Assembly: GCA_030647905.1 (NCBI GenBank)
Contig: JAUSJA010000025.1
Span: 1-64,000, forward strand
Direction: 5' to 3'
From: Gemmatimonadaceae bacterium
GTDB lineage: Bacteria; Gemmatimonadota; Gemmatimonadetes; Gemmatimonadales; Gemmatimonadaceae
DNA length: 64,000 nucleotides
The notes beneath the pieces were generated by a model, which saw nothing but the letters and a program-made list of their open reading frames with translations, was not told the origin of the DNA and searched no databases. Made by a program: the position numbers and the translations under genes. This document shows positions 618 through 53,461 of this stretch, in pieces (position 1 is the first letter of the stretch; each line of letters begins with the position of its first letter).

Positions 618-1068
618 GTAGTTGCGAGAGTGAGGTGGTTTGCTTCCTAACTAGTTATTAACCAGCGACGTTATACTGCGAGATTGCGGCATTCACTGCA
701 AGCCGCGGCTGCTAATTCTGCAATGCTTGGCGCCTCCCGCTGGATCAACTCGTTGAGGGTGCCGCACTTAGCGCTTGCTCATGTTGTCCTAGTCGTGCGC
801 TCTGCTGCGAAATCCCTGCAGCCTATTGTCGCAACCCTGCTTCCGAGAAAGAAGCATGGCGCAGGGTGATCCCATCCCATCCCACCGCGAGCTCAATTCG
901 GCTCGAGCAGTACCATGTGCCCGCATCTTCTTGCCGATGCTGTTGAGTAAAGCTGCGCCCAGCTTCATCAACAGCTTGACCGCCCGCTTCTCTGCCTCGT
1001 CAATCAGCGACTGCGGCGTTCGCGTACCGCCGCGCGGGTGGGGCCTTTCCGCGCAAGCTCTGGAGGGT
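618..1068. other. Non-coding stretch inside the tRNA-Arg-linked element
   Basis: No convincing gene on either strand. The open frames here are short, have biased composition and match no family I recognise. The stretch separates the PD-(D/E)XK-like gene from the conserved element end at 1069-1190. Confidence 0.5.
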
Positions 1069-1190
1069 GGGGCCGTTTGTGGGGCCGTTTCTCGCGGTAA
1101 ATTGCGGCTCGAATGACGGGAAAGTCCGGCACCGACGCTCGGTTTCCCTCTAGAGTTCGGCAGTATGTCGTTAAAGGTTAGTGGTTGTTG
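1069..1190 (+). mobile_element. Conserved right end of an integrated element (copy A)
   Basis: This stretch aligns over nearly its whole length, with only single-base gaps, to 53291-53412, which abuts a tRNA-Pro fragment. The best-conserved part, 1118-1150, differs from 53341-53373 at three positions and contains a hairpin (GGGAAA...CCGG with CCGG/TCGG...TTTCCC arms). A second conserved block (TTCGGCAG...GGTTAGTG) runs up to the junction with the tRNA-Arg fragment. Two different tRNA genes share this flank, so it is best read as the attachment-site arm of one element family. No integrase gene is seen beside it. Confidence 0.7.
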
Positions 1191-1236
1191 CTGACTTCGG
1201 ATCAGAAGGTTGGGGGTTCGAGCCCCTCCGGGCGCA
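1191..1236 (+). other. tRNA-Arg(TCG) 3'-half fragment (attachment-site scar)
   Basis: Reads as an anticodon arm with loop CTTCGGA (anticodon TCG), a variable region, a five-pair T arm (GGGGG/CCCTC around TTCGAGC) and the 3' acceptor strand CGGGCGC plus discriminator A. The matching 5' acceptor GCGCCCG and the D arm are missing upstream, where element sequence begins instead. It is therefore not a functional tRNA gene. It is the 3' segment left at the far side of an element inserted in a tRNA-Arg gene lying left of the window. CCA is not encoded. Confidence 0.8.
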
Positions 1237-35422: not shown

Positions 35423-35496
35423 CGGGGCGTAGCGTAGCCCGGTAGCGCGCCTGCTTCGGGAGCAGGAGGTCGCTGGTTCAAATCCAGTCGCCCCGA
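35423..35496 (+). tRNA. tRNA-Pro(CGG)
   Basis: 74 bases folding as a complete cloverleaf: acceptor CGGGGCG/CGCCCCG, D arm with GGTAGCGC, anticodon arm CCTGC-TTCGGGA-GCAGG (anticodon CGG, codon CCG), T arm GCTGG-TTCAAAT-CCAGT (outer pair G-T) and discriminator A. CCA is not encoded. Its 3' half from the anticodon arm is repeated three times downstream, showing that this gene is an integration target that has been used repeatedly. Confidence 0.95.
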
Positions 35497-35557
35497 CTTA
35501 TTAAGAAGCCGTTGGAAGTCAACTCAACAATCCCCCGCGAAGATAACGGAGCTGCGG

Positions 35558-36115
35558 CTACTTCATCGGCAGCATCACGTGTGCATACGGCGTCTCCGCC
35601 CACATGACATATGCTCCTTTTGAAGTTGGCTTCACCGGAAGTCCAGCAAGGCTACTCCGGTGCGGGTAGGCGATCATGATGTTGGCGAACACGTGATGCC
35701 AGTCGTTGTCCGGCTTCGGACCCTTTGCCGACGGTGTCGTGTTGCTCACCCACTGGTCGCCGGTCAGCATGTACGAGACTCCCATTGCCTTCAGCGCGGG
35801 CTGCTTACGCGCCCTCATGGCGGCCAGGAACTCGGCGAAATTCGCGTCCATACACATTGCGTTGTTCAGGACGTACTTGGACTTCGGGCTGTTCGGCATG
35901 CACGTCCAGCCGTTTGTTCCCTGCCGCAGAAGCGTCATTTTTCCGCTCGCGTCGGCCCGATCGATGATCGTTGCGTCCTTCGCAATCGATGCGGGAGCGG
36001 CAGCCATGGCGCTCGCAATCTTGGCAGCGTTTGTTGATTGAGCTCGCAGTGCGGAGGGACAAAGCGCCGCCAGCAATGTCGTTGCCAACGGAATGGAAAG
36101 GGCGTTGCGAACCAT
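35558..36115 (-). CDS. Secreted hypothetical protein (island 1 cargo)
   Basis: 185 residues. The start at ATG 36115 is fixed by a strong AGGAGG five bases upstream. The signal peptide ends near SALRAQS. The mature protein contains GTNGWTCMPNSPKSKYVLNNAMC and a Met/Trp-rich C-terminal half (LTGDQWVSNTTP, DNDWHHVFANIMIAYP). It has two Cys that could form a disulfide and no catalytic motif I recognise. It is the only gene in island 1. Confidence 0.7.
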   Translation of the reverse strand: MVRNALSIPLATTLLAALCPSALRAQSTNAAKIASAMAAAPASIAKDATIIDRADASGKMTLLRQGTNGWTCMPNSPKSKYVLNNAMCMDANFAEFLAAMRARKQPALKAMGVSYMLTGDQWVSNTTPSAKGPKPDNDWHHVFANIMIAYPHRSSLAGLPVKPTSKGAYVMWAETPYAHVMLPMK

Positions 36116-36353
36116 CGACACCTCCTTCGCGAATGGGCGGTAAAGTGAGAGCCGTATGCGCGTGGCAGCATCACGCGCTAAGAACGTCGCATCAATGCAG
36201 AGCGCGCGCTAGGAGGCGCTGTATGTCCATTCCGGAAGTCTGACTTCTGACGCTCACTTCGGGGTGCCCCGCCGCGCCCGCGGTGGCGAACCCGGACGAG
36301 GGACACGACCTGCATCAGCCGCAGCATATCCGGCTCCGGGACACCCAAATTGA

Positions 36354-36402
36354 CCTGCTTCGGGAGCAGGAGGTCGCTGGTTCAAATCCAGTCGCCCCGA
36401 CT
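36354..36402 (+). repeat. tRNA-Pro 3'-half direct repeat, copy 1
   Basis: 49 bases identical to 35450-35498 of the tRNA-Pro region, from the anticodon arm CCTGCTTCGGG through the 3' acceptor strand and GACT. The 5' half of the tRNA is absent upstream. It acts as the attachment-site scar between islands 1 and 2. Confidence 0.9.
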
Positions 36403-36509
36403 ATTGAGCTCAAGGCCCTGTCGCTATTTACGCGGTGGGGCCCTTTGCTGGCTGCAGCCCGTTTCCTCGTTCTTTACCCGTGTTGCGCGGGTTGCATCCG
36501 AACGCGGTA

Positions 36510-36743
36510 TTACGGCCCACCTTGTGGCGGCCGGCGTTGGCGCGGCGGCTCGATCGTCATCGCGTCCGCCTGCACGGCTCCCGGCCTGACCTCGGTGTGC
36601 CGGACTCGGCCGCCGAGAAGTCCGGTGTAAATCATCGCCCCGCTGACCACCGCCGTTCCCACGAGCATCACTAGCGTCGCGCTGCCGGGTACCGGCCTCC
36701 GTCGCCAGCGCACGAGCGAACCAAGCGCGATGCCCGCGATCAT
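36510..36743 (-). CDS. Small membrane protein, possibly a DUF2231 C-terminal remnant
   Basis: 77 residues whose ATG overlaps the MFS stop as ATGA. One or two membrane segments are visible (MIAGIALGSLV and about 23-43, SATLVMLVGTAVVSGAMIYTG), followed by LLGGRVRHTEVRPG. That last stretch resembles the end of DUF2231-type membrane proteins, which are normally about twice this length, so it may be the tail of one that lost its front. Translational coupling to the transporter suggests it is still expressed. It lies close to the left edge of island 2. Confidence 0.5.
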   Translation of the reverse strand: MIAGIALGSLVRWRRRPVPGSATLVMLVGTAVVSGAMIYTGLLGGRVRHTEVRPGAVQADAMTIEPPRQRRPPQGGP

Positions 36744-38113
36744 CGAGATAGGGAACCGAGGGCCGCCCAGTTACGTGGCGCGTCGTCAACGCTCCGGAGA
36801 ATCCACCAGCTGAGCACTACCATAAGGAGGAGCGCGGCTACGCCGTACCCCTGGCCGACCTGCACGGGCATGTGCAGGCGACGAACCGTCAGCGTCGTCA
36901 CCGCCGCCCAGATCACCGGCCCGGAGATCGCGGAAAACCGGCCGACCATGCCGTACAGCCCATAGAACTCGCCAACGCGATCAGGAGGCGTGAGCCGGAG
37001 CATGAGTGGCCGGTCAGCGCTCCATACGCCACCAAGCGCGACGCCCGCCATCGCGGCAACCACCCAGAGTGTCGCGAGCGGCAGGCCGAGGAGCCCCATC
37101 GCGCTCGCAAGGCTGAACGTCACGATCCACAGATACAGCACGATGTCGAGCGTCCGCTTCGGTCCGATGCGGTCCACGATCCATCCCCATACGAATCCGC
37201 CGATGACTGCGAACGTGATCGCCGACATCATGATGAGCTGCGCGGTTTGTTCCGCTGCGTCCTTCGCCTGTCCGGCGTTGATCGCGACGTTCACGGCGTA
37301 GAGCGTCATGACGGAGATGACGGTGTTGATGGCGTCGGTGTAAAAGACGCGTCCCACGAGAAATCGCACGAGGCCGGGATAGCGCTCCCCTTCGCGCAGT
37401 GTGCGGATTGTCTGCTTCGTGCTCGATGCGATGATGCCGAGATCGAACACCTTGCCCGGATTCGGGTTGCCGCGTTCGCGCACGAACACGAAACACGGGA
37501 TCGAGAACACGAGAAAGGCGAGCGCGATCAGCGTGAACAGCAGCGCTTTGTCGCTCGTTCCGAGCGTGAGTCCAATGCCGACGGCGATGTAGGAGCCAAG
37601 GTACCCGATGCCGACGCCAATCCCGCCGATCCGGCCGCGGTTCGCTTCCGTCGTGACTTCGACGAGCAGCGAATCATAGAACTGCAGGCCGGCCTGATAC
37701 GCCGCATTCGCGATCACGAACGCGATGACGGTACCCGCGTAACCGGCGCGGCCAAGTAGCAGCGTGAACCCGACGCAAAGCACCGTGCTTACAATGAGAA
37801 AGGGCATCCGGCGGCGCGCCCGGTCGCTCATCGCGCCCAGCAGCGGGGATAAGATGAAAATGATCCCCATCGAAAACGCGGTGATCAGCGCGTAGACCGA
37901 ATCCGCGCGCTCGGGCCCGACCTGGTCGCGGATCCAGAGCGAGAAGAAGAGGGACACGACCCCCATGGAGAAGATCGTGTTCGCGAGGTCGTAGAGCACC
38001 CACGATGCGATGGCGCGAAATGGTGCCGGACGTTCGAGCCCCGCGGGATGAGTCGCTTGCGTCGCACCCGCGGCGGCGCCGGCCGCGGGGACGGGACCAG
38101 CCGGCGAATTCAT
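36740..38113 (-). CDS. MFS transporter, UMF1/Atg22-like
   Basis: 457 residues from ATG 38113 with twelve membrane helices. The first helix region SWVLYDLANTIFSMGVVSLFFSLWI and DRARRRMPFL after helix three are typical of the UMF1/Atg22-like branch of the major facilitator superfamily, and LRFLVGRVFYTDAINTVISV marks the start of the second half. The substrate is not predictable; relatives are proposed amino-acid or small-solute exporters. It lies at the left end of island 2, with the small membrane protein coupled behind it. Confidence 0.85.
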   Translation of the reverse strand: MNSPAGPVPAAGAAAGATQATHPAGLERPAPFRAIASWVLYDLANTIFSMGVVSLFFSLWIRDQVGPERADSVYALITAFSMGIIFILSPLLGAMSDRARRRMPFLIVSTVLCVGFTLLLGRAGYAGTVIAFVIANAAYQAGLQFYDSLLVEVTTEANRGRIGGIGVGIGYLGSYIAVGIGLTLGTSDKALLFTLIALAFLVFSIPCFVFVRERGNPNPGKVFDLGIIASSTKQTIRTLREGERYPGLVRFLVGRVFYTDAINTVISVMTLYAVNVAINAGQAKDAAEQTAQLIMMSAITFAVIGGFVWGWIVDRIGPKRTLDIVLYLWIVTFSLASAMGLLGLPLATLWVVAAMAGVALGGVWSADRPLMLRLTPPDRVGEFYGLYGMVGRFSAISGPVIWAAVTTLTVRRLHMPVQVGQGYGVAALLLMVVLSWWILRSVDDAPRNWAALGSLSR

Positions 38114-38357
38114 GCGCGCAACCATACGGACGGCCACCCACGCGCACAAGGACGAGGGGCTTAGTGGCTAATCGGCAGACGGCGCGCGCACGGAATCAAC
38201 TCGACAGCGGATGTCTTTATTGCAAATGCTCAGGGTCGCTACATCGGCCACGTGTGTCACTACCGCGAGTGTCATCCGCGGCCGCTCTGCCGAGCACGAC
38301 ACTGCGGGGCGCTGACCCCGCGGTCGGGGGAATGGCGCCCCCGTATTGGGGAGGACG

Positions 38358-38879
38358 TCAGTGTTTGCCGAGCACAGTGAGGGACCCGCGCATGCCGAGC
38401 GCCTCATGTGGATCGCACACGAGCTCGTACGTCCCCTCGGTGAACCGCGAGTCTACCACGATGGTGTATGTCTGCCCCTTCGTGGTGAGATAGGGGCTGA
38501 TGGCGGCGGCGCCGAGTTTCGCACCTTTCGGCTGCTTCTTGAAATGCACGTTGTGCATCGTCGCGGAGGCTTGTACGAACCGTAGCGTGTCGCCGCGGTG
38601 GGCCGTGAAATTCGCCGGCTCGAACGCGAACGGCATGGCGCCCGGTCGTTCGACAAACCTGACCACGATGACATGCGGCACCGGTGCGCCGGGTGCGACA
38701 TTCTGCGCGCCGACCGGCAGCGCGAGGGCGAGGCCACTGGCGAGGCAGGCGCTGATTACGAAATGGATGCGAGAGATAGGTTCCTCCTCGAAACGCTTGA
38801 TCGGCGAGACGCCTGATCGGTTGAAGGGAACGGACTTGGTCTCCCCCATGTGGAATGGAAGGTATGTCATGCCCACCAC
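38358..38879 (-). CDS. Plastocyanin-like cupredoxin
   Basis: Up to 173 residues. A signal peptide is evident at about 37-59 (HFVISACLASGLALALPVGAQ), so the true start is probably internal, but no well-placed start codon is visible; the boundary is uncertain. The mature domain has the type-1 copper set: His in MHNVHF, then Cys-His-Met in CDPHEALGMRG. It should be a periplasmic blue-copper electron carrier. It stands 108 bases downstream of the second cupredoxin-like gene on the same strand and belongs to the island 2 redox module. Confidence 0.85.
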   Translation of the reverse strand: MVGMTYLPFHMGETKSVPFNRSGVSPIKRFEEEPISRIHFVISACLASGLALALPVGAQNVAPGAPVPHVIVVRFVERPGAMPFAFEPANFTAHRGDTLRFVQASATMHNVHFKKQPKGAKLGAAAISPYLTTKGQTYTIVVDSRFTEGTYELVCDPHEALGMRGSLTVLGKH

Positions 38880-38987
38880 CTGTTCAATAGGCGTCGTCCT
38901 GAAGTTCGGTGCGGGAATCCACCACGGCAGGCGTTCCCCCGGTCCGGCAAACCTCTCGCGACGAATCTCCTGCTGCGCGCGCGCGGG

Positions 38988-39630
38988 TCACCTCCAGCGG
39001 TGCTGCTCCGCCGACCGCGGTTCCACCGGGAGGCCGTACTCCAGTGTCAGGTCGACGCGCACGGCGCCGTTGGCGGCAACTGAGACCACCTGATCCTGCG
39101 TCCGCAGTCGCCGATGCCAGGTGCGGAGGTGATAGGTACCGGGCGCCACGCCATCAAGCTTGAACCGGCCCTCGTCGTCCGTGACGGCGCGATACGGCGA
39201 CGCCACCACGACGACATAGCCCACCATCTCCGGATGCACGTGACAGAAGATCACGTAGGCGCCTTCATCATCGAAGGTGAAGCTGCGCCGCTCACCCTGA
39301 GGGTACGTGCCGAGGTCGAAGCCGCCGCCGTGCCTGCTGGGGTGAAAGACGTTGTGCATCACGGGATCGCTGTTCGGGAAGGACACGGTCGACCCCGGGC
39401 TCACGGCGATGACGCGCGGCACGAACCGCAGGCCGCGTTGATCGATCTGGGCGCTTAGCGGTGCGATAGCCGGCACTCGGGCCGACGCGGCGCGAATCAG
39501 ATAGACGACGACCCCACCCATTCCTGCGGCTGGAGCGGTGACCGTTCCGGAAACCATGCCGTCCTGCGCGGCCAGACGCGCGTGCGGGAGAAAGAGTGCG
39601 CCCGCGAGGACGACGCTCGCCATCAGGCGA

Positions 39631-39638
<8 letters not shown>
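38988..39638 (-). CDS. Cupredoxin-like protein with carboxypeptidase-regulatory domain
   Basis: 216 residues; the start at ATG 39638 overlaps the response-regulator stop by eight bases. The signal peptide ends near RLAAQD. A cupredoxin-like domain (about 60-150) keeps DPVMHNVF and CHVHPEMVGYVVV as copper-ligand stretches, and is followed by a small regulatory-like beta domain (about 150-200, DDEGRFKLDGVAPGTYHLRTWH). Relatives are annotated as methylamine-utilisation or plastocyanin-like proteins. It is directly coupled to the two-component genes, so it is likely made with them. Confidence 0.8.
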
Positions 39639-41006
<1,368 letters not shown>

Positions 41007-41031
<25 letters not shown>

Positions 41032-43325
41032 GTTGCACCCATGGGTTGGAGGGGGATGGTGACGACGAACCGGCAGCCGCCGTCGGGCGGTGTGTCGACG
41101 GCGATGACGCCACCGTGGCGATCGACGATGCTGCGGCACACGGTGAGACCGAGGCCAGTGCCGTGCCCAGGTCCTTTCGTCGTGAAGAAGGGATCGAAGA
41201 CGCGCTCGCGGAGCTCGGGAGCCAATCCGTGACCGGTATCTCGCACCTCAATCTCCACCGCTTCCCCGTCGGCGCTGCACCGGGTGGAGAGCGTCACGGT
41301 TCCGTCTGGCGGCGTAGCATCTGCCGCGTTGAGCAGCAGATTGACGATGACCGTTTCGATGGCCTTCTCGTACCCGATGACGTCGGGTACGCCGGGCTCG
41401 ACATGGAGCTGCAGATGCAAACGGCGCATGGCCATTGTTCGGTTGAGGAGCGCCACGGTGCTTTCGGCAAGCGCGCCGAGCGCGACCGGCCCCGCTTCTC
41501 CGCGGTCGTCGCGCGCGAAGCGGAGCAGGCTCGTCGTCAGCTCTCGCAGCCGCGCCACGTGTTGCTGTAGCACGTCGAGGTCCGTAGCCAGCGGTGTGTC
41601 GCTCCACTTGTCCCGTACGTCGCGCTGCATGCACTCGATGCGGTTGCCGATGATGGCCAACGGGTTGTTGATCTCGTGCGCCAGCCCAGCCGCCATGACG
41701 CTGATGGCCGCCAGACGCTCGGAACGCCGCATCTGATCCTCGAGGCGGGACTGCAACCGGTTGTCGCGGACGATGAGGGAAGAGCCGAGCGCGCCACCGT
41801 CCACGCCGGCGATGAGCGTGGCCGTGAGACTGATCTGAATGGGCGTGCCGTCCTTGGCGAGCACTTCGGTGAGGAAGTTCACCACCGCGTGCTCCCGCTC
41901 CAGCTCGCGTCGCATCACCGCCTGCTCACGGCGGGCCCGCTCGCCGCTGGGACGGAGCACCGCGTTGATCTCCCGGCTGATGGCCTCCGACCCAGAGTAG
42001 CCGAGGAGCCGCTCGGCGCCGTCGTTCCAGATGGTGACGACGCCGGAGGGGTCGAGCCCAATGATGCCGTCGGCGGAATGCTTGAGAATGTCGGCCAACT
42101 CGGCATGGGTGTGCTCGAGCAGGCGCGTTCGCTCGGCGATGAGCGCTTCTCGCTGGGCGCGATGCCGCGCGACCTGCTCAGCCACCCGCGCGAAGTCATT
42201 CGCGAGATCCTCGAACTCGTCGTTCGTCTCGACGTTCGGCTGCCGCACCGGCTCGCCGCGGGCGAGCTGCCATGCGGCGTCGCGGATCCGGAAGATCGGT
42301 TTGGTGAACTCGTTCGCCGCGAGCATGGCGAGGCCGAGCACGAGCAGCGCCACCAAGCCGGCGGCGAGGAAAACAAGCAATACGAACGAGCGCGCTGGCG
42401 CCGCGACCGTGGCGATGGGCACCACGCGATAGAGCGAGAGTCTGGCCCCGGAGGGCGTGCCCAGCGAGAGAGGACGGAAACTGACCAGCTCCCGGTCGGG
42501 CGTCATCAACGTGCCCGCGCGCCCCGAGATGATGGCCGACGCGACGTCGTCCGGAAAGTCGCTGCGCACACTCAGCCGATCGTGCGCGGCCAGGAGGGTC
42601 GCCCAGTCGCGTTTGCGCAACGAGTGATAGAGAAAGTGTCCGTCGCCGTCGACGAGTCCGGTGATGCCGCCGAATCCCGCCGACGCATGATCGAGGTGCG
42701 AAAAGAGCGCCGAAGCGTACGCCTCGCCGACCACTGCGCCGCGGAATTCGCCGTTCGGCGCGTGCACGGGGAACAGGAGGGCTACGGCCGGCATCGGCTT
42801 CCGAAGCCCGGGTTCTTCGGGACCCGCCACCTCGATGGCGAAGAGCAGCCGCGTGTGCGGCCGCAGTGAGCTGGCGCGCCAGGCGTAGTACTCGCCCCCG
42901 TCCATCTCCTCGGCGTCCAGCGACGGACCCGACGCGCGAACGAGCAACCGGTAGCGGCCGTCGGCGTCGATGAGCTTCACCTGGTACAGCGTCGGCTCGG
43001 AGGCAAGGAGCGTCTTTACGACACGTTCGGCGTCCAGGCGCTCGCGCGGGGGGATGGCGCCGTCGTGGAGCAACGGCCCGAGCACGACGTTGGCGATGAG
43101 GTTCATGTGACCTTCCGCCGAGCTGAGAGAGAGCGCGGTCTCGGTCTCTGCCATCTCGAGGTCGTGCTCGAGCGTATTGCGCGCCGTGGCCTCGATCTGA
43201 AACACCGTCTCGCGAGCGCCGATGAACGACACGACGGCCAGCGGTCCAAGCGCCACGAGCGCGAATGCGATCGCGAGCTTGACGCGGATGCTCAACCGCG
43301 GAAACAGCTTGTTGACGTTGATCAT
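41007..43325 (-). CDS. Membrane sensor histidine kinase (Cache-HAMP-PAS-HisKA-HATPase)
   Basis: 772 residues from ATG 43325. Helix one (about 17-38) and helix two (about 318-342) frame a large periplasmic sensor region of the double-Cache type. A HAMP domain (about 343-395) and a PAS domain (about 415-525) follow. The dimerisation domain has MAAGLAHEINNPLA with the phospho-accepting His, and the ATPase domain has NLLLNAADAT, DTGHGLAPELRERVFDPFFTTK and GTGLGL. It should sense an extracytoplasmic signal and phosphorylate the sigma-54 activator encoded downstream. The ligand is unknown. Confidence 0.92.
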
Positions 43326-43833
43326 CAACGGCCGTCGGTTGCAGCGGGGCGCGGTGCACACAGCATTTTAGGCACCAGCTCGGAAGGGGTTACTCGTCGG
43401 TACGTGGCGCGGTGGCGATTGGAAAGCCGGGAACACTGACATGATATCGGGTGAAGTGCCCTTCCGCGAGGACGGCGCATCACGCAGCGCGACGCGCCAG
43501 TCGTGACGCGGCAATCGTGATGGGCTGATCGCGACGCGGCGACGGTGCGCCACGCCCTGTCACAGTGCGTCACGAATTGTCCCAACGGCGAACGCAGCGC
43601 GGGCTTGACTGGGGACGCACGCTCAAGGTGCAACGCATTGTCCGGCCAGCGCTTACGCCATTGTGCGCCCGCCTGCCGGCTGACCTCGCACCGTGGCGCG
43701 GCACGTGCCTGTGTAGCGCTCAGCGGGGCCGCGCGTTCGCGTGACACCGCGGATCATCGTGGCTAACGGGGACGGAGGGGGGCGGGTGCCGGCACGACAG
43801 AACTCTGACGGAGGCGATCACATACCGATAACG
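43326..43833. promoter_or_regulatory. Divergent control region of the island 2 redox module
   Basis: 508 bases between the kinase (left) and the ferredoxin gene (right), with no gene of its own. It contains perfect 9-base inverted sites TCGTGACGC (43501-43509) and GCGTCACGA (43567-43575), a perfect palindrome GGCACGTGCC (43700-43709) and further GTGACGC/CGCCACGC-like sequences. These are candidates for binding sites of the neighbouring sigma-54 activator. Sequences with the GG-N10-GC spacing of sigma-54 promoters exist, but none is a strong match. Confidence 0.45.
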
Positions 43834-44754
43834 ATGCAGCGACGTGATTTCTTACGGGCCGGCTTGGTGGCGGCGGGCGGCGTGGTGGCTGGTGTGGGGG
43901 CCACGAGCTCGCTGAGGGCGGCCGATGTTGTGGACGGCGCGAAGGCGCCGGCGACGTTGACGCTCACCGCGGATGGAGAGTTGGTGGTGTCGTCGGCGCT
44001 GAGCGACGCTGGCACCAGGCCAACTTCCGACGAGGTGCGCCAAGGCGTGCCCGGACGCCGCTGGATGATGGTCATCGATCTCGCGGCATGCGACGGCTGC
44101 GGCAAGTGCACCAAGGCGTGCGCCAGGAGCCACTTCGTGCCGCCGGACCGGGAGTTCATGCGGGTGTTCTCGATGGAAGACCCATCGACCGCGGCGCCAT
44201 ACTGGTTCCCGCGGCCGTGCTTTCACTGCGACAACGCGCCCTGCACGCGCGTGTGTCCGGTTGGGGCCACGTTCAAGCGCCAGGACGGGATCGTGTTGAT
44301 CGACAACGAGCGTTGCATCGGTTGCCGGTTCTGCATGGCCGCCTGCCCGTATTCGGTGCGCGCGTTCAACTGGAGCCGCCCCGACAATCCGCCGGCGGCC
44401 GTGGCGCGCGGTTACTCGCCGGAATGGGGGTATCCGCGGCGCGTCGGCACGGCCGAGAAGTGCGACTTCTGCGCCGACATGGCGCGCGAGGGCAAGCTCC
44501 CACATTGCGCCGCCCAGTGCCCCATGGATGCAATCTGGTTCGGCGATGAGAACGAGGACGCGGTGACGAACGGAAAGGGCGAGACGGTGAGGCTCTCCGC
44601 GCTGCTCCGCGATCGCGCGGCCTTCAGGTACATGGAGGAGCTCGGGACGAAGCCTCGCGTCCACTACCTGCCGGCGCACAACCGGCGCTACCCGGCGCCA
44701 GGTGAACCCGGCGCCAACACCGGTCACCAAACGAGAGGAGCCGAGCAGCCATGA
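43834..44754 (+). CDS. Four-cluster ferredoxin subunit (NrfC/PsrB/DmsB type), Tat signal
   Basis: 306 residues from ATG 43834, where a twin-arginine signal starts (MQRRDFLRAGLVAAGG). Four cysteine sets are seen: CDGCGKCTKAC, CFHCDNAPCTRVCP, CIGCRFCMAACP and CDFC...CAAQCP, enough for four [4Fe-4S] clusters. Such subunits pass electrons between a molybdopterin or multiheme catalytic partner and an NrfD-type membrane subunit. Here the NrfD gene follows with an ATGA overlap, but no catalytic subunit is present. The protein should face the periplasm. Confidence 0.92.
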   Translation: MQRRDFLRAGLVAAGGVVAGVGATSSLRAADVVDGAKAPATLTLTADGELVVSSALSDAGTRPTSDEVRQGVPGRRWMMVIDLAACDGCGKCTKACARSHFVPPDREFMRVFSMEDPSTAAPYWFPRPCFHCDNAPCTRVCPVGATFKRQDGIVLIDNERCIGCRFCMAACPYSVRAFNWSRPDNPPAAVARGYSPEWGYPRRVGTAEKCDFCADMAREGKLPHCAAQCPMDAIWFGDENEDAVTNGKGETVRLSALLRDRAAFRYMEELGTKPRVHYLPAHNRRYPAPGEPGANTGHQTRGAEQP

Positions 44755-46727
44755 ACGCAATGCCCCTTTCCGATTTTCAGATTGAAACCGTCCCCTCGCT
44801 CGCACGTCCGGCGCGGCGCACGGTGACCGACGTCGAGCGGGATCTGCTGGCGACGCTCGATCCTTTGGGTGGCCGCGGCCGCCTCTGGATCGCGAGTCTG
44901 TTGGCCGTATGCGGCATCGCCTTCATCGCATGGATCCAACAGCTCCGCTACGGGCTGACCGTGACCTCGATGCGCAACTACGTGTCGTGGGGCGTGTACA
45001 TGACGAACTTCGTGTTCTTCATCGGTATCAGCCACGCGGGCACGCTGATCTCGGCCATCCTGCGCGTTACGGACGCCGGTTGGCGGCGGCCCATCACGCG
45101 CATGGCCGAGGCGATCACCGTCATCGCGCTCCTCATCGGCGCGAGCAGCGTTGTGATCGACATGGGACGCCCCGACCGTCTTCTGAATCTGCTCATCCAC
45201 GGCCGGCTACAGTCGCCGATCCTTTGGGACCTGGTGTCGGTCACGACGTACCTGACTGGGAGCTTCCTCTATCTGTACGTGGCGATGATTCCGGACATGC
45301 CGATGCTGGCAGAGCACGCTCGCGAGCGTGGTCGCTCTCCGAAGCTCGTGCGCCTGTACGAATTGCTGTCGCTCGGATTCAGGGAAACGCCTGCCCACCG
45401 GCGCCTTCTCGCGCGCGCCCTCGGCGCGATGGCCGTGATCATCATCCCGGTGGCTGTGTCGGTACACACCGTCGTGTCGTGGGTGTTCGGCATGACGCTG
45501 CGGCCAGGCTGGCACAGCACCATCTTCGGTCCCTACTTCGTGGTCGGGGCGATTTTCTCCGGCACGGCGGGGATCATCACGGCGATGATGATCTTCCGCC
45601 GCGCGTACCATCTCGAGCGCTATCTCCTGCCGGAGCATTTCCACAAGCTGGCGAAGATCCTGCTCGTCCTCTCGCTGCTCTACGCCTATTTCACGCTGAG
45701 TGAATACCTCACGGCGTGGTATGGCGGGCTCGAGTCAGATGCGCGGCTGCTCGATCTGCTCGCCGGCGGTACCGCCTTCGGCCGATCGTTCTGGCTCTGG
45801 GCAGCATTCGGCCTGTTCGTTCCGATCGGACTGCTGCTCTTCCCCAGCCGCCGTTCGCTGGGAGCGATCATGACCGCCTCGGTGCTCATCAACATTGGCA
45901 TGTGGTGGAAGCGGTTTCTGATCGTCGTGCCGACGCTGGAGACGCCGTTCATCCCGGCGCAGGCGGCGGGGATCGCGCCGCGCTACTTCCCGAGTCTCGT
46001 GGAATGTCTGATCACGGCGGGAGCGTTCGCCGGCTTCCTGCTGCTCTTTACGCTGTTCTCGCGCCTGTTCCCGATCCTCTCGATCTGGGAGACCGTCGAG
46101 GATGCCGAGGAGGTGAAGCAGGCCACGGTTAGGACCGGCCACGCGCTCGCGGGAGCGGGACACGCACACGCACGCATGAGTCCGGCGACGCTCGGGATCG
46201 CATTGCTGCTCGCCGCCGGCGCTGCCGCGGCGGCACCCTGGTCGGCGGCGCACGCACAGACCGCGCAAGGCAAGGCGGTCATCGAATTGACGCGCACAAC
46301 CGAGGGTGAAGAGGAGATGCTCGTGGCGAAGGTCACCGCCAACGGACTGCCGGTGAAAGGCGCCACGGTCGCCTTCTCGGTGAGGCGCACGTTTGGCTTG
46401 ATGACACTCGGCGAGGATCAGACGCTGGACGACGGCACGGCGGCCGTGGCATTTCCCACAGCATTGCCGGGTGACGCCAAGGGCGAGCTGACGTTCCGTG
46501 TCGCGCTGCGATCGCCGCCGGAGCTGGACAGCTCGGCGGCTGACGTGAAGCTTGCCGGCGCGCCGGCCCGACCCTGGCCGTCCGTTCCGCCGCGCGCGCT
46601 CTGGTCGTCGCGCGTCCCATTGGCGATCCCGGCCACGTTCGCCTTCCTTGTGCTCTGCGTTTGGAGCACGTACGCGTTCGTCGTCAGACAACTGGCCGCG
46701 TTGCGCAAGCTGAAACAGGAGAGTTGA
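44751..46727 (+). CDS. NrfD-type quinone-interacting membrane protein with extra C-terminal domain
   Basis: 658 residues against about 320-430 for usual NrfD/PsrC proteins. Residues 1-450 hold about ten membrane helices, with family motifs VSWGVYMTNFVFFIGISHAGTL (about 78-99) and VSVHTVVSWVFGM (about 236-248), where quinone sites lie in relatives. After a His-rich linker (463-475, GHALAGAGHAHAR) comes a hydrophobic signal-like segment (about 479-502, ending AHAQ), a beta-sandwich-like domain (about 505-600, with LPVKGATVAFSVRRTFG) and a final helix (about 622-645). A Met at 476 (46176) could be a separate internal start. It should exchange electrons between quinol and the ferredoxin subunit. 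Confidence 0.88.
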   Translation: MNAMPLSDFQIETVPSLARPARRTVTDVERDLLATLDPLGGRGRLWIASLLAVCGIAFIAWIQQLRYGLTVTSMRNYVSWGVYMTNFVFFIGISHAGTLISAILRVTDAGWRRPITRMAEAITVIALLIGASSVVIDMGRPDRLLNLLIHGRLQSPILWDLVSVTTYLTGSFLYLYVAMIPDMPMLAEHARERGRSPKLVRLYELLSLGFRETPAHRRLLARALGAMAVIIIPVAVSVHTVVSWVFGMTLRPGWHSTIFGPYFVVGAIFSGTAGIITAMMIFRRAYHLERYLLPEHFHKLAKILLVLSLLYAYFTLSEYLTAWYGGLESDARLLDLLAGGTAFGRSFWLWAAFGLFVPIGLLLFPSRRSLGAIMTASVLINIGMWWKRFLIVVPTLETPFIPAQAAGIAPRYFPSLVECLITAGAFAGFLLLFTLFSRLFPILSIWETVEDAEEVKQATVRTGHALAGAGHAHARMSPATLGIALLLAAGAAAAAPWSAAHAQTAQGKAVIELTRTTEGEEEMLVAKVTANGLPVKGATVAFSVRRTFGLMTLGEDQTLDDGTAAVAFPTALPGDAKGELTFRVALRSPPELDSSAADVKLAGAPARPWPSVPPRALWSSRVPLAIPATFAFLVLCVWSTYAFVVRQLAALRKLKQES

Positions 46728-46729
46728 AA

Positions 46730-47173
46730 ATGTCCCTGAAGCACAGAGTCGCTAATTCCGTCGTGCGTGCCCTCGCCATTTCCGCCGCACTCGCCCTGAT
46801 ATCGTTGATGGCTTCCACGCCGGCCCAGGCGCAGGGGTCAGGGAACGCGAAACCGTGGGTCGCGCCACAGCGCGCGAGCCAACGGGCGAACCCGCTCCCG
46901 CCGACGGCCGACGCCTTGAAACGCGGCCGCAATCTGTTCCACCGCGACTGCGAGCAGTGTCACGGGAAGGCCGGCCACGGCGACGGACCGCTGGCAGTCT
47001 CGCTGCTGCCGCGCCCCGCCGACCTCGCGCCGGCGCGCGTGCAGTCCCAATCCGATGGCGCGCTCTTCTGGAAAATGTCGACAGGCCGAGGCGTGATGCC
47101 GAAAGTCACGCTGAGCGAGAATGAGAGGTGGGCGTTGGTCAACTACCTTCGCACGCTGGCGGCACAACGGTAG
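46730..47173 (+). CDS. Monoheme periplasmic cytochrome c
   Basis: 147 residues from ATG 46730, two bases after the NrfD-like stop, with AGGAG before it. The signal peptide ends in PAQAQ. One heme site, CEQCHGKAGHGDGPLA (about 83-98), and the Met of GRGVMPKVTLSENE as likely axial ligand match class I cytochrome c. It is a soluble periplasmic carrier. Its position makes it the natural link between the ferredoxin/NrfD pair in the inner membrane and the porin-cytochrome encoded next. Confidence 0.9.
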   Translation: MSLKHRVANSVVRALAISAALALISLMASTPAQAQGSGNAKPWVAPQRASQRANPLPPTADALKRGRNLFHRDCEQCHGKAGHGDGPLAVSLLPRPADLAPARVQSQSDGALFWKMSTGRGVMPKVTLSENERWALVNYLRTLAAQR

Positions 47174-47335
47174 GAAGGCGGGTCGCACAGGATTGCACGC
47201 AGACCCTTCACAATTCAGCTCAAAGGCATAATGACCGGCCACCGACTTGATCCATGCTGTTCCAGCAGTCATCGCCCAGTAGTCATCACCCACGGTGCGC
47301 CAGCAGGCGGCTCACCCTTCCCGGAGGATTTACGT

Positions 47336-48634
47336 ATGCAGATACACTGTCTTGGCAACATTCTTCGCCGCCGGTGGATTCTCGCTCTGGTCGCGGCGGG
47401 CCTTACAATCATCCCCGCCAACAGCTACGCGTTTCCCGCATTCGCGCGCCAGACCGGACTGGCTTGCTCCTCGTGTCACTTCCAGAAATACCCCGCGCTC
47501 ACCGCGTTCGGCCGGGCATTCAAGGCGAGCAGCTTTACCATGATGGGCGCTCAGGAGACGGTCAAGGGCGAGGGGCTGTCTCTGCCATCAGTTCTGAACG
47601 GCAGCATCTTCTTCAAGATCCGCTACCAGCAAACCAACGGCACCGAAGTTCCCGGGGAGCGCACGACCAACACCGGCGAGCTCCAGTTCCCTGACGAGTT
47701 TGCGCTGCTGCTGGGCGGGCGCGTGGGCGAACATGCCGGCTTCATGATCGAAGGCCAGCTGGCCGACGCCTCGGCGCCCTTTGTTGCCGGCTTCAAGATG
47801 CCCTTCACCTTCATGTTGGGTACCACCAGCATTCGGGCCGATGTTATTCCCTTCACCACCGACGCACTGGGCGTCGCCTACGGCTTCGAGCTGCTGAACA
47901 CCGGCGCCGTGCGCAACGTCCGCGTCAACGAGAATCGCAACGCGATTTCGGCGCAGCAGTACATCGGGACCGCTACGGCGGCCGAGGGCATCGCCTTCGT
48001 GCTCGCCGACCCAATGTGGTTCGTCAACGTGACCAGGTGGTCGCCCAACCACTTCGCTGGCGCCGGAGGGGTGGCAAATGGCGCGCCCACCGCGACGTAT
48101 CTGCGTGCGGCGTTCACGCCGACCGTGGGCCAGTGGGACCTGGGCATCGGGATTCAATCGTGGAGCGGTTCCGCAGGGACGGCCAATGAGGATGGAACGG
48201 GAGTTGACATCTTCGAAACCAGCGCCCTCGCGTTTGACGCTCAGGCTCAGGGCGCGGTCGGGGGACTGCCGCTGGGGGTCTATGTTACCCACGGCAAGTC
48301 CGACGCGAGCGCCCCGGGCGCAGACAAGAACCTGTTCAACTCGAGGACGAGAGACCGTTCCGCTTCGACGGTGACGGCCGAGCTAGGCGTCACGAAGAAT
48401 CCCCACCTGACGGTGCTTGGCGCGTATCGCAACGCTGACAACGGTCGCGCCGAGGCGAACAGCACTGACAACGCATTCACCTTCGGCGTGAATTGGATGG
48501 TCGCGCAGAATGTCGGCCTGCACTGGATTTTCAACAAGTTCACCGGCAGTGCTTATGACGCAGGGCAAGGACCGATGAAGCCCGGCGGTAGCGGCAACAT
48601 GTTGAACACGTTGATGCTCTCCGCAGGGTTCTGA
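47336..48634 (+). CDS. Outer-membrane beta-barrel protein with N-terminal heme-c motif
   Basis: 432 residues from ATG 47336, which has GGAGG at the right distance. The signal peptide ends near NSYAF. A single heme motif CSSCHFQ lies at about residue 45, within the stretch FARQTGLACSSCHFQKYPAL and then FGRAFKASSFTMMG. The rest (about 80-432) is a series of amphipathic strands ending in an aromatic residue (LSAGF), as in porins of about 16 strands. Heme next to a barrel suggests electron passage at the outer membrane. Relatives are often labelled only cytochrome c or hypothetical. Last gene of the plus-strand redox operon. Confidence 0.8.
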   Translation: MQIHCLGNILRRRWILALVAAGLTIIPANSYAFPAFARQTGLACSSCHFQKYPALTAFGRAFKASSFTMMGAQETVKGEGLSLPSVLNGSIFFKIRYQQTNGTEVPGERTTNTGELQFPDEFALLLGGRVGEHAGFMIEGQLADASAPFVAGFKMPFTFMLGTTSIRADVIPFTTDALGVAYGFELLNTGAVRNVRVNENRNAISAQQYIGTATAAEGIAFVLADPMWFVNVTRWSPNHFAGAGGVANGAPTATYLRAAFTPTVGQWDLGIGIQSWSGSAGTANEDGTGVDIFETSALAFDAQAQGAVGGLPLGVYVTHGKSDASAPGADKNLFNSRTRDRSASTVTAELGVTKNPHLTVLGAYRNADNGRAEANSTDNAFTFGVNWMVAQNVGLHWIFNKFTGSAYDAGQGPMKPGGSGNMLNTLMLSAGF

Positions 48635-48718
48635 TCGACTTGGACAGATAACTGGGCTGGCCTTCCGACTCCCTACGGACCAGCTGTTCCGCATGGGGTC
48701 GGAGGGCGAGCGCCACCG

Positions 48719-48753
48719 GTCCGGCAGAATGTAGTAGTTGGTTAGTGTATTGC
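48719..48753 (+). mobile_element. Conserved right end of an integrated element (copy C, short)
   Basis: 34 bases (GTCCGGCAGAATG...TATTG) identical to 53378-53411, then one differing base before the tRNA-Pro repeat. The hairpin block seen in copies A and B is missing here. It marks the right end of island 2. Confidence 0.75.
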
Positions 48754-48798
48754 CCTGCTTCGGGAGCAGGAGGTCGCTGGTTCAAATCCAGTCGCCCC
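48754..48798 (+). repeat. tRNA-Pro 3'-half direct repeat, copy 2
   Basis: 45 bases identical to tRNA-Pro from CCTGCTTCGG to CGCCCC, then A in place of the last acceptor G. It is not a tRNA gene, since the 5' half is absent. It is the scar between islands 2 and 3. Confidence 0.9.
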
Positions 48799-48914
48799 AG
48801 ATTGCAGCTGAAGAGGAGAAACTATTTTCTCATGTAGCCCAATCAGATGCTCCGCTCTCTAAAGAACGAGCGTCGCGGCGCCGATGCAAGCAATTCGGAT
48901 GATCATGGCGCTCT

Positions 48915-50618
48915 CTATTGAATCGTTAGTGTGTATGCTCCCACCGCCGTCGTCGGGACAGAGCGGGTGAAGATCGCGTAGTAGTTCGTCTGCGTGACAG
49001 TGAACGTGATCCGCGAATCCTTCGTTGTCGCATCTATGTTGTCGTTCTGCGCCATGACCAGTCCGTCGAGTCGAACGAGCTGCAGGAATGAATCCAGTGT
49101 GGTCGACGTCATGTTGATCGTGATCGACGTGCCGGCTTTCAGAAAGATGTAATAGCGGTCGGAATAGATTGGTGTCGCAGCTGCGTCGGCGAGATTGCAA
49201 TCCGTCGTAGCGGTATTCTGCGTCGTCGTAATGTTCCTTACAACAAAGACCTGCTCGCAGTTGGCTACGTCGGCCGGGGCAGTCGTCGAAGTGATCGTGT
49301 AGTCTCCCACCACGAGCGAGTCGAATGTGTTCGGAGCCAGCAGATAGTTGCCCGCAGGCAGGAGCGCCTTGATGCCGGAGTTCGTCCCTGTCTCGAGTTC
49401 ATCGTCGTTCTCGCCGATGGTCGTTCCATCGGGCATTGCCAGATGGAGGTACGTGTCGAAGCCTGCCGACTGGCGGAAAAAGTACGCTCCCGCCTGCGGA
49501 ACGCTGGTGGTGAAGAAGTCGACGAAGCTGCGGTCCGGGAGCTGACAATCGCTCGACGAAAGCGTGCCGCTGCTGCTGGTCCCGAACGTGTGTGTCGACC
49601 GGACGGTGCAGAGGCTGGAGATGGCTCCGGCAGTGAACGTCACAGATGGAAGACCAGTAACCGTGGCAGACAACGAGTTCACCCCGGCTGAATTGCCAAG
49701 AGTCCAGCTGCCCACGGTAGCCACGCCGGCCGCATTTGTCACGGCCGTCGCACCGGTGATCGACCCGCCGCCAGACACGACCGCAAAGCTTACGGATATT
49801 CCGGACTTCGGGTTGCCGTAAGCGTCCTTTACGATGACAGACGGAGGAATCGGGACTGCGCTGCCAGCGGCGGCGGTCTGATTGTCGCCTCCATTTTTTG
49901 CGAGTGAAGCCGCAGCTCCCGCGGTGGATATCGCCGTGAAGGCAACGCTATCGAGTGTTCCGGAAGTTGCGTTGAGAACGTTCGCTCCTGCTACCGGGCC
50001 AAGCGTCCACGAGCCGACGGTCGCAATGCCGGAAGCGTTGGTGGTGACTATCGCTCCGGTAACTGATCCACCGCCGCTGACTACCGCGAAGGTCACGGAT
50101 ACGCCGGACTTCGGGTTGCCGTTAGCGTCCCTTACGATGACAGAGGCAGGAATCGGGACTGCACTTCCAACTGCAGCAGTCTGATTGTCGCCTGCATTCC
50201 TGGCGAGTGAAGCCGCAGCTCCCGCGGTGGATGTCGCCGCGAAGGCAACGCCATCGAGTGTTCCGGAGGTTGCTCGGAGGACGTTCTCTCCTGGCACCGG
50301 GCCAAGCGTCCACGAGCCGACGGTCGCAATGCCGGATGCATCGGTGGTGATCGTCGCTCCTGAAACCGATCCACCGCCGCTGGCTACCGCGAACGTTACC
50401 GTCGCGCCACCCATCGGTGACCCGTTCTGGTCTTTCACGATGACGGAGGGCGGCGGCGTGACGACCGCGCCTGCAACCCCGGTGACGGAGGTCGAGGAGT
50501 TCGCTGCAAGCGTCGTCGCAACCGAGACCGAGGGCTCCGTTGTTGACTCGCCTTTGCAGCTGATGCTGGCGACCAGGAGAAAAGCGGAGGCTAGCCGGGT
50601 CGCACGGACAGAAAGCAT
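48915..50618 (-). CDS. Lipoprotein with three Big_1-type Ig-like repeats and C-terminal PPC-like domains
   Basis: 567 residues from ATG 50618. A signal with lipobox SISC (Cys about 21) predicts a lipoprotein. Three bacterial Ig-like repeats of about 95 residues follow, each with SVIVKD..NG.P..G..V.FAV.SGGGS and GIATVGSWTLG; repeats one to three are very similar in DNA as well. The C-terminal part (about 330-567) holds two pre-peptidase-like beta modules (LPDRSFVDFFTT..., DRYYIFLKAGTSITINM). There is no catalytic motif. Likely a surface adhesion or scaffold protein. Confidence 0.75.
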   Translation of the reverse strand: MLSVRATRLASAFLLVASISCKGESTTEPSVSVATTLAANSSTSVTGVAGAVVTPPPSVIVKDQNGSPMGGATVTFAVASGGGSVSGATITTDASGIATVGSWTLGPVPGENVLRATSGTLDGVAFAATSTAGAAASLARNAGDNQTAAVGSAVPIPASVIVRDANGNPKSGVSVTFAVVSGGGSVTGAIVTTNASGIATVGSWTLGPVAGANVLNATSGTLDSVAFTAISTAGAAASLAKNGGDNQTAAAGSAVPIPPSVIVKDAYGNPKSGISVSFAVVSGGGSITGATAVTNAAGVATVGSWTLGNSAGVNSLSATVTGLPSVTFTAGAISSLCTVRSTHTFGTSSSGTLSSSDCQLPDRSFVDFFTTSVPQAGAYFFRQSAGFDTYLHLAMPDGTTIGENDDELETGTNSGIKALLPAGNYLLAPNTFDSLVVGDYTITSTTAPADVANCEQVFVVRNITTTQNTATTDCNLADAAATPIYSDRYYIFLKAGTSITINMTSTTLDSFLQLVRLDGLVMAQNDNIDATTKDSRITFTVTQTNYYAIFTRSVPTTAVGAYTLTIQ

Positions 50619-50695
50619 TCTCACGCGGTCCGCGATCGGTGCCTCTTCCTCATGACTCGAGCTGCGTATCCCGCGTTTGCCGTATGAACCGGCTC

Positions 50696-51961
50696 CTAAC
50701 ACAACGGCGAAAAGCAGAACAGTGGACGCTTCCCGACCCCACTCCTCGTGTCCCCGTCGGGCTCGGTCAATGCCAGCAGAACGGTGTTACTGAAGTCCGA
50801 CCAGGCGGCCTGACCGTAGACGTTGTGGTACCGGACGCGTGCTCTTACCAGATCGCCGATCCTGAAGTCGACGAAAGGAGTCTGACTGGCGCCGGGACCG
50901 GCTACCAGCTCCGTCTTGTGATAGACGAAGGAATCCGACCCGGGCGCCTGCACCCAGAACTCCGCCTCGGCTCCCCACGCTGCGGTCGTGTTATTCCATC
51001 GAAGCTTTGCCTGTCCGTCCGCGGAACCCACGACCTTCAGGCCAGTCGGTATGTCAGTCAGGGGGTTCGCGTAGGTCTGACCTGCCGGCGTCAGGCTCCC
51101 ATCCTCATTCGCCAGATAGTTAGCCTCGCCAGCCCACGATTCGTAGCTCCAGTAAACGGCCTCATTGATTCTAGGGTCCCTCATGAGGCGACCCATCGCC
51201 TGCTTCAAGTATTCCTGATACTGCGGCGCGGATATCTTCCAGCGGTGAAATGCCCATGCGCCGAGTACCATGTTCGCGCCGTGGGAGACGGACCAGGTCG
51301 CCAACTTGTCGACCCTCGACCACCAGCCGTCCACATCGCCAACGTCGAACGGCAGCCCGAAATCGTGGAACCGCCATTCGTCAACGGATGGCGCCGCTCC
51401 GAAACGCTGCACATACGCGCTGTAGAACTGATCGGCATAGCCGACCGAGTGCATGCGTACGCGGCATGGCTCTTCTACCGGCTCCGGGCAACAGCGGTCA
51501 TTCGGCTCCGCAAAGCCGGCGGGAGAGAACCGTGCTGTTGGATCCGCGCCGCGCACTGTCGTGACGAAGTAGTGATAGATACCCGCGTACTCGTAGGCCG
51601 GGATGCAATACTGGTCAGGCTCATCGCCGTTGATATAGAGCCGGCCGGGGTTGGCCCTCGCGAAGTCCAGAACGGGCTGTTCGGGCCATAATCCGCCGAA
51701 TTGCCGGTTTAGCCGAGTGTCGAGAGCGAAGTTTTGCGTCTGGATCGGACTGGAGCTGTAGTTCCGCGACCACGCGACAAAGAACTTGTTGAATGGGACG
51801 TTATCGGTCCGCGCGACACTCGGGAGCTTGGGGCCTGTGGGTTGGAGCTTGGGGCCTGTGGGTTGTTGATCGGCGCACCCGGACAGGATTACGCATAGGA
51901 GTGCTGCGGGGATCATCGCGGATCGAACGCATTTCGACCGCAATAACTTCGGGTGATGCAT
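50696..51961 (-). CDS. Lipoprotein of unknown function with glycosidase-like core
   Basis: 421 residues. The signal ends in lipobox LSGC (Cys about 29), followed by a seven-residue repeat (QPTGPKL twice). The core (about 60-300) has Trp/Tyr/Asp-rich stretches such as GRLYINGDEPDQY, WRFHDFGLPFDVGDVDGWWSRV and NEAVYWSYESW, reminiscent of TIM-barrel glycosyl hydrolases, but I cannot assign a family. A fibronectin III-like end (about 310-395) follows. There are several Cys, likely disulfides. It precedes the Ig-repeat lipoprotein, probably in one operon. Confidence 0.65.
   Translation of the reverse strand: MHHPKLLRSKCVRSAMIPAALLCVILSGCADQQPTGPKLQPTGPKLPSVARTDNVPFNKFFVAWSRNYSSSPIQTQNFALDTRLNRQFGGLWPEQPVLDFARANPGRLYINGDEPDQYCIPAYEYAGIYHYFVTTVRGADPTARFSPAGFAEPNDRCCPEPVEEPCRVRMHSVGYADQFYSAYVQRFGAAPSVDEWRFHDFGLPFDVGDVDGWWSRVDKLATWSVSHGANMVLGAWAFHRWKISAPQYQEYLKQAMGRLMRDPRINEAVYWSYESWAGEANYLANEDGSLTPAGQTYANPLTDIPTGLKVVGSADGQAKLRWNNTTAAWGAEAEFWVQAPGSDSFVYHKTELVAGPGASQTPFVDFRIGDLVRARVRYHNVYGQAAWSDFSNTVLLALTEPDGDTRSGVGKRPLFCFSPLC
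51840..51881. repeat. Two-copy 21-base tandem repeat in a lipoprotein gene
   Basis: Two head-to-tail copies of a unit containing GCTTGGGGCCTGTGGGTTG encode the duplicated QPTGPKL stretch directly behind the lipobox. It is in frame, so it only lengthens the linker. Confidence 0.7.
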
Positions 51962-52560
51962 AGCTATCCTCTGAGTCTGCCATAGAAACGGCCGACCGTC
52001 ACTGTAGTTCTTACGCTTGAGGTGAGTGCGCCCAAGCTAAGAGGGATTTTCGATCTTACAAGGCTGGATTACGACACGTATTTGTGCATCCGGTCAGGAA
52101 GAACGATCCAGCGTTCATGAATGCGCTTGAAGGGTTATCTGGGAATCGCCTGGCGCGCGAAATTCTGACAACGGCAGAGCTCGATTTGCGAATGTTCCAG
52201 CAGCTTTACTTTTAGTGATTCAGGATGTGTTCGATCGACCATACCGGTGCAAACTAGCTCGGGACATTGCTCAACGGTCGGATATGTCGAACCGAGCCCT
52301 TTACAGAAGATTGCGAGCTATCGGATGAAGAAGGGTCAAAGGAAATGTATCGCGCGGACATGGCTAACAGAGCTCTTACTCATCAGAAACGCGCAGCGGT
52401 GAGACTCAATCCCCGTCGATCCGAGTCGACGGCGGAACGTAGAACGGAAGCCGGGCCGCGTCTGTTGATAGTCAAACTTCGATCGCGGGTATGTCGTCCC
52501 AACCCAACGATCTCGTTGCGCGGTCTCGTGAGTGATGTACCGAAGCGGAAGATTAGCGGT
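51962..52560. other. Gene-poor, AT-richer stretch in island 3
   Basis: About 600 bases with no recognisable gene on either strand. A plus-strand open frame from 52267 leads into the hydrolase pseudogene, but its first 98 codons match nothing and look like chance. Composition is AT-richer than the flanks. Confidence 0.45.
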
Positions 52561-53290
52561 ATGAAGGAGAGCATATCGATAGAAGTGAGCGACGGCACGC
52601 AGATGGGCGCGTACGTTTCAAGACCGCCGGGTAATGACCCTCGCCCCGCCATGATGGTCTTTCAGGAAGCGTTGGGTGTGAACTCGCAGATCCGCGGAGT
52701 AGCTGACCGGTGGGCGGAGAAGGGATTCGTTGCGATCGGCCTGATCTATTTGATCGAGTGAGCCCCGGCTACGAAACCAGTGCGCTCGACATCGAGCAGA
52801 TCATGCCTCTCGTTCGATGACGGATTGGCTGCCGACGCAACTGCAGCGCACGCATGGCTGACCGAGCAGTCCTTCGTCGACTCGTCGCGAATAGCCGCTG
52901 TGGGATTCTGTATGGGTGGCCGCGCCACATTCATTGCCAACAGCGAACTGCCACTCGCTGCGGCGATCTCGTATTACGGCGGCTCCATCGCGCCCGCGCT
53001 TCTGGACCGTGTGCCTCGACTCCATGCTCCGCATCTCTTTTTCTGGGGCGGGCAGGACAAAGGAATTCCTGCTGAGCAGCGACGCGCGGTGACGGACGCT
53101 CTTGAGGCTGCCGGAAAGCTTTTCGTCAGTGTCGAGTTCTCGGATGCTAATCACGCATTCTTCAACGAGCAGGTCTATCGGTACAATGAGGCAGCTGCCA
53201 GGCAATCGTGGGCCAGGTCACACGCGTTTCTGCTGAACATTTCTAGCACGGTGGCCGGGGAGACGCATAAAAAAGTGAACGCGAGGTTCC
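52561..53290 (+). pseudogene. Dienelactone hydrolase-family gene, two frameshifts
   Basis: Starts MKESISIEVSDGTQMGAYVSRP. The alpha/beta-hydrolase features FQEALGVNSQIRGVADRWAEKG, GFCMGGRATF (catalytic Cys) and DANHAFFNEQVYR (catalytic His) are all present, but in different frames. The first break is near 52740, where the missing part continues as PDLFDRVSPGYETSALDIEQIMPLVR in another frame. The second is near 52820, before DDGLAADATAAHAW. The end runs into the element's conserved right end. Without the breaks it would be a near full-length cytosolic hydrolase of about 230-240 residues. Two sequencing errors are an alternative. Confidence 0.8.
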
Positions 53291-53412
53291 GGGGTGAGTT
53301 TGGGGGTGAGTTTCTTCCGGCAGAGTGCGGCATTGAAGTCGGGAAACTCCGGCACCGACGGCCGGTTTCCCTCCAAAGTCCGGCAGAATGTAGTAGTTGG
53401 TTAGTGTATTGA
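53291..53412 (+). mobile_element. Conserved right end of an integrated element (copy B)
   Basis: Matches 1069-1190 beside the tRNA-Arg fragment over about 122 bases. The best block is 53341-53373 (30 of 33 bases identical), which can fold as GGGAAAC-CCGG / CCGG-TTTCCC. Its last 34 bases before the junction base are identical to the end of island 2. It begins with a repeated GGGGTGAGTTT motif. Confidence 0.78.
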
Positions 53413-53461
53413 CCTGCTTCGGGAGCAGGAGGTCGCTGGTTCAAATCCAGTCGCCCCGACT
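53413..53461 (+). repeat. tRNA-Pro 3'-half direct repeat, copy 3
   Basis: 49 bases identical to 35450-35498. It is the last copy in the window. The following bases resemble those at 36403 onward (left end of island 2), so another element may begin here. Confidence 0.9.

Follow-up and report, generated by a model that had tools for sequence, protein, structure and literature searches.

How does the same stretch of bacterial DNA come to stand directly in front of fragments of two different tRNA genes? The question is raised by a 64,000-nucleotide stretch (the window) of contig C25, one of the 37 contigs of a 3.1-Mb draft genome of a Gemmatimonadaceae bacterium, in which an earlier note, made from the letters alone, had pointed to a likeness between the 122 bases preceding a fragment of tRNA-Arg(TCG) and those preceding the third of a series of tRNA-Pro(CGG) fragments. 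This likeness was borne out: a gapped alignment of positions 1069-1190 with 53291-53412 has 93 identities in 119 aligned columns, and the global alignment score of the pair (51) lies far above those of 2000 Markov-resampled pairs (mean -25, s.d. 6.6, maximum -2). Within it, a 33-base block is identical at 30 of 33 bases, as had been claimed, when 53341-53373 is set against 1118-1150 (a shift of one base relative to the naive offset), and a BLAST search with a tRNA-free end as the query recovered a match at 1075-1183 (E 3.9e-16). From the analyses described below we conclude that mobile islands with a tyrosine integrase have these 122 bases as the distal arm, or one half, of their attachment site.

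The features of the window are listed in Table 1. A tandem array of three island remnants lies at the tRNA-Pro gene; in two of these the arm is truncated, and the tRNA-Pro(CGG) fragments that terminate the three are identical to the intact gene over 48, 45 and 48 bases, respectively. An intact tRNA gene followed downstream, in the same orientation, by its cognate displaced 3' fragment is thus a feature of this array, as it is of two complete islands in other genomes described below (L137 and L136). A search of contig C25 for tyrosine recombinases (PF00589) gave no match. The counterpart of the Arg end lies elsewhere in the same genome (G000), where GGGGGCTGTTT/TGGGGCCGTTT repeats and, beyond these, the C-terminal stump of an integrase, QVDEETLLAVMNEPRKL, come after an intact tRNA-Arg(TCG) gene (C34:19440-19513, locus L005). 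Since both the matching repeats and the integrase stump are found there, the Arg end in the window is very probably the other end of this integrase-deleted island, which we infer to span at least 20 kb across a contig break. The left end on C34 appears to extend past the contig edge. Both copies of the arm in the window are read as belonging to remnants from which the integrase has been deleted.

Table 1. Features of the window (contig C25) and, in the last two lines, ends of the same family that lie outside tRNA genes in other genomes.
Feature	Position	Strand	Basis or remark
Two direct repeats TGGGGCCGTTT, candidate arm-type sites, distal arm of Arg island	1068..1090	+	Copies identical; like the repeats on contig C34
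Conserved scaffold of attachment arm, including block 1118-1150	1091..1190	+	Match to model R1, E 1.2e-26; alignment
Displaced 3' fragment of tRNA-Arg(TCG), anticodon arm to 3' end	1191..1236	+	46/46 identical to positions 29-74 of intact gene C34:19440-19513
Intact tRNA-Pro(CGG), restored target of Pro array	35423..35497	+	ARAGORN; Rfam tRNA
Integrase-less remnant 1 of tandem array	35498..36401	+	Terminal tRNA-Pro fragment 36354-36401; arm reduced to last few bases
Integrase-less remnant 2	36402..48798	+	Truncated arm 48719-48752, then tRNA-Pro fragment 48754-48798; no PF00589 match on C25
Integrase-less remnant 3	48799..53460	+	Full arm, then tRNA-Pro fragment
Two direct repeats GGGGTGAGTTT, candidate arm-type sites	53290..53313	+	Alignment of ends
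Conserved scaffold of distal arm, with block 53341-53373 inside	53314..53412	+	BLAST, alignment, model match
Displaced 3' fragment of tRNA-Pro(CGG)	53413..53460	+	48/48 identical to positions 28-75 of intact gene
Non-tRNA ends	L056:7191-7072; L057:3181-3062; L058:13486-13606; L059:2975-2856		
Non-tRNA ends, continued	L062:1942-1823; L130:2812-2693; L131:15205-15325		

A BLAST search with the bare end as query identified it in nine other genomes within the genus and, beyond it, in some from the family and order. An alignment of 22 ends was then used to build a sequence-only model for a wider search, in which only the end itself and none of the tRNA was included. Of 394 genomes of the class, 51 contained matches to this model, and in a phylum-wide sample, which overlaps that set, all matches fell inside the same class. 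Among the 72 distinct ends collected, 50 adjoin a tRNA 3' half, as compared with 33 of 2000 random 100-mers drawn from the same loci as controls (1.7%). The tRNAs concerned are Pro(GGG) at 15 ends, Pro(CGG) at 13, Pro(TGG) at nine, Gln(CTG) at five, Ala(TGC) at four, Arg(TCG) at three and Arg(ACG) at one. At 48 of the 50, the tRNA match begins within 3 nt of a single register, at position 32 of the anticodon loop, a regularity that is partly by construction for the training ends, which were trimmed at the core motif; the Gln ends, which lie outside the training set, show the same register. This supports the part of the earlier proposal in which a site-specific recombinase places the end of one element family at the anticodon arm and has more than one tRNA as its target. 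The remaining 22 ends lack a recognisable tRNA half; some of these are decayed, and seven are close relatives of one another at palindromes outside tRNA genes.

The aligned ends share a common layout, with two repeats at a spacing of 12 bp, ending in GTTT, followed by a scaffold with CGGCACCGACG as its central motif and CGGCAGAATGTCGT beyond that. The two repeat copies of an end agree at 6.1 of 7 variable bases, where 5000 shuffles gave a mean of 3.0 and a maximum of 3.96. Furthermore, in five islands for which both ends could be compared, repeats from opposite ends of an island resemble each other more closely than do repeats from separate islands (1 of 120 permutations was as good), so that these islands have, on either side of the core, the matching arm-type repeats that characterise a lambda-type attP. 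Judged by their sequences, the repeats behave like protein-binding sites.

Initial Pfam searches around the ends found few integrases, because most ends have none nearby. In a genome of the same genus (G270), TGTGTCAGTTT repeats come after an intact tRNA-Pro(CGG) gene, and beyond them lies the C-terminal end of a tyrosine recombinase of 415 aa, with its stop codon 79 bp from the tRNA; these repeats recur in distal ends located 6.7 and 12 kb away. The nearer of these closes a complete island of 6.7 kb (L137:8000-14668), and a second complete island, of 8.5 kb, lies at a tRNA-Ala(TGC) gene in another genome of the genus (G269, L136:82-8528). Both carry an excisionase-like gene and an integrase of about 415 aa that ends 79-100 bp from the intact tRNA, with arm repeats at both ends. 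The tyrosine integrase that the window islands have lost is present inside the islands of relatives (P0001, P0002), and the G270 protein, P0001, matches PF00589 (5e-11) and a PHROG integrase family (4e-27). By eye, the cargo of these two islands includes no obvious conjugation or phage structural genes.

Relatives of this integrase were identified in 148 of the 394 class genomes, and the named ones are encoded in Gemmatimonadota MAGs. Most of the best relatives have a stop codon 66-150 bp from the 3' end of an intact tRNA gene, which may be Pro(CGG/TGG/GGG), Arg(TCG), Ala(TGC) or Gln(CTG), and in five of the loci examined a helix-turn-helix gene, probably an excisionase, lies directly upstream. 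In a phylogenetic tree, four integrases from the same genus form one group (support 98/97), whose members stand at Pro(CGG), Pro(TGG), Arg(TCG) and Ala(TGC). Searches with P0001 recovered no relatives from phage and plasmid collections and a single, distant one from IMG/VR. Integrase relatives look very numerous in one family, f7 (genera g83 and g89; for example genomes G402, G319 and G453), where a first look gave as many as about 50 candidates in a single genome. We also noted a broken tyrosine recombinase gene (L051:13433-14179, G276:C11:153570-154124), whose C-terminus looks integron-integrase-like by eye, and which lies about 600 bp inside one end of the arm family and points away from that end.

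Taken together, the arm is very probably the distal attachment arm of a Gemmatimonadota family of tyrosine-integrase islands, in which the integrases have changed their tRNA target while the arm scaffold and the loop register were kept. From the anatomy, tRNA association, register, matched arms and integrase position observed here, we infer how binding, catalysis and the order of events might run. A full island begins with the intact, restored tRNA gene, followed by arm-type direct repeats, an integrase gene pointing at the tRNA and an excisionase-like helix-turn-helix gene, and continues through the cargo to two further arm-type repeats, the conserved scaffold and the displaced tRNA 3' half. 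The integrase would bind the arm repeats, together with the anticodon stem as core sites, and is predicted to exchange strands across the 7-bp anticodon loop; the attP of the circular form would carry the tRNA 3' half and so restore the target gene. Integrase lineages have switched among at least seven tRNA isoacceptors, retaining the scaffold and the register as they did so. Searches for a syntenic empty tRNA site found none for the window islands or the G270 island. For the closely related ends outside tRNA genes there is one pair of an occupied and an empty site (G265:C15, 26693 and 1468), the same 246-bp sequence with and without the end, 98% identical, with the identity starting exactly at the core; this branch may use either secondary sites or a new target.

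The earlier note had instead favoured a single promiscuous recombinase that would recognise, in any anticodon loop, a short core of CTTCGG. The hexamer is indeed present in both loops of the window, as the note said, but it occupies positions 31-36 in Pro and 32-37 in Arg; since the end is aligned to loop position 32 while CTTCGG is shifted by one base between the two, the hexamer does not set the register. When the neighbours of the arm were tabulated, as had been proposed, tRNA 3' halves recurred as expected, whereas CTTCGG loops did not prove general, being absent at 34 of the 50 tRNA-abutting ends (where the loops include ATGGGGT, TTTGGGA, CTCTGGA, TTTGCAA and CTACGGA). Nor does one recombinase tolerate the various tRNA arms: many divergent integrases were found, each beside its own tRNA. 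The register, together with the Pro(GGG), Pro(TGG), Gln, Ala and Arg(ACG) targets, already refutes the CTTCGG core, and we give this reading next to no chance. It is also very improbable that the block is a conserved non-coding RNA, a terminator or a general dispersed repeat that lies near tRNA fragments by chance. Although the window copies can be drawn as a hairpin and some copies of the arm lie away from tRNAs, RNAalifold found only three consensus pairs across the 22 aligned ends, none with a compensatory change, and an Rfam scan of the window matched the intact tRNA-Pro and returned no family for the arm. Instead of being dispersed away from tRNA fragments, the ends stand at tRNA halves in 50 of 72 cases, in a near-fixed register, and their arm repeats co-vary. 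An integron cassette with an attC site was considered and rejected, as P0001 scores 12.9 bits against a TIGR02249 cut-off of 265 and the end has no conserved fold.

A further possibility refines the attachment-arm reading rather than opposing it, namely that the integrase-less units with this end are non-autonomous cassettes, moved in trans by the integrases of relatives, and not dead remnants. Several bounded units lack an integrase (L061, of 2.1 kb, L069, L070 and L068), some of them with arms kept on both sides, and an integrase stump is retained beside a left arm. The seven ends outside tRNA genes also bear on this: they have TTTACCC-type repeats, stand at CCTGCTCnnnGAGCAGG-like palindromes with unrelated genes upstream, and form a closely related subgroup, 84-99% identical, within one genus. 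Against this, accretion and decay of islands at tRNA genes would account for the same pattern, some ends are truncated (as at 48719-48752), and an identical unit at two places with empty sites was not seen. We therefore regard movement in trans as unlikely. Somewhat more doubtful still is the fuller proposal that integrase-less units form a functional, cassette-like pool mobilised in trans by radiated integrases, with arm specificity and tRNA target evolving as separate modules on a constant scaffold, and with one recent branch having left tRNA genes for CCTGCTCnnnGAGCAGG-like palindromes.

Returning to the attachment-arm reading, the family is, as far as could be searched, undescribed, and a literature search on genomic islands in Gemmatimonadota returned nothing on this one. 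The earlier remark that no described family has this signature may hold for the family by name; the signature itself (a tRNA gene, a displaced fragment and an anticodon-loop crossover) is classical (PMC4383910). The literature gives good accounts of tRNA-gene islands that show displaced fragments, crossovers centred on the anticodon and tandem arrays (PMC4383910, which cites the sublocation scheme of Williams 2002). It also describes attB sites whose overlap and core sites match the anticodon loop and stems, and a single integrase family diversifying across many tRNA genes (PMC8371274). We therefore file the family under a known kind of island, as ordinary tRNA-gene island biology with target switching. 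Less usual are the conservation of the distal arm, which is strong enough for the arm to be recognised when the integrase is absent, and the high proportion of units lacking an integrase. The arm thus provides a sequence handle for integrase-less islands that integrase-based finders overlook, and the integrases are candidates for use in a phylum poor in genetic tools. How tyrosine integrases change target has been called not fully understood (PMC8371274), and the family offers a compact natural series for this change, with one conserved arm, varying repeats, at least seven tRNA targets and one genus on four tRNAs.

Amongst known systems, the closest likeness is to the anticodon-centred tRNA and tmRNA islands of Islander (PMC4383910), which share the intact tRNA gene, displaced 3' fragment, tyrosine integrase, anticodon-loop crossover and tandem arrays. 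The islands of the window differ in having lost the integrase, so that Islander's integrase filter would reject them, and in a distal arm that is recognisable alone across a class. The arrangement also resembles a lambda-type attP with its P and P' arms, in that arm-type direct repeats flank a 7-bp overlap with inverted core sites and a helix-turn-helix gene lies beside the integrase; arm binding, host-factor binding and directionality are putative here. We know of no counterpart of the scaffold. Finally, integrases of the archaeal pT26-2 type, which use 14 tRNA genes (PMC8371274), likewise represent one integrase family spread over many tRNA genes, but are suicidal, with the att site inside the integrase gene, whereas in the islands described here the integrase stands whole beside a restored tRNA.
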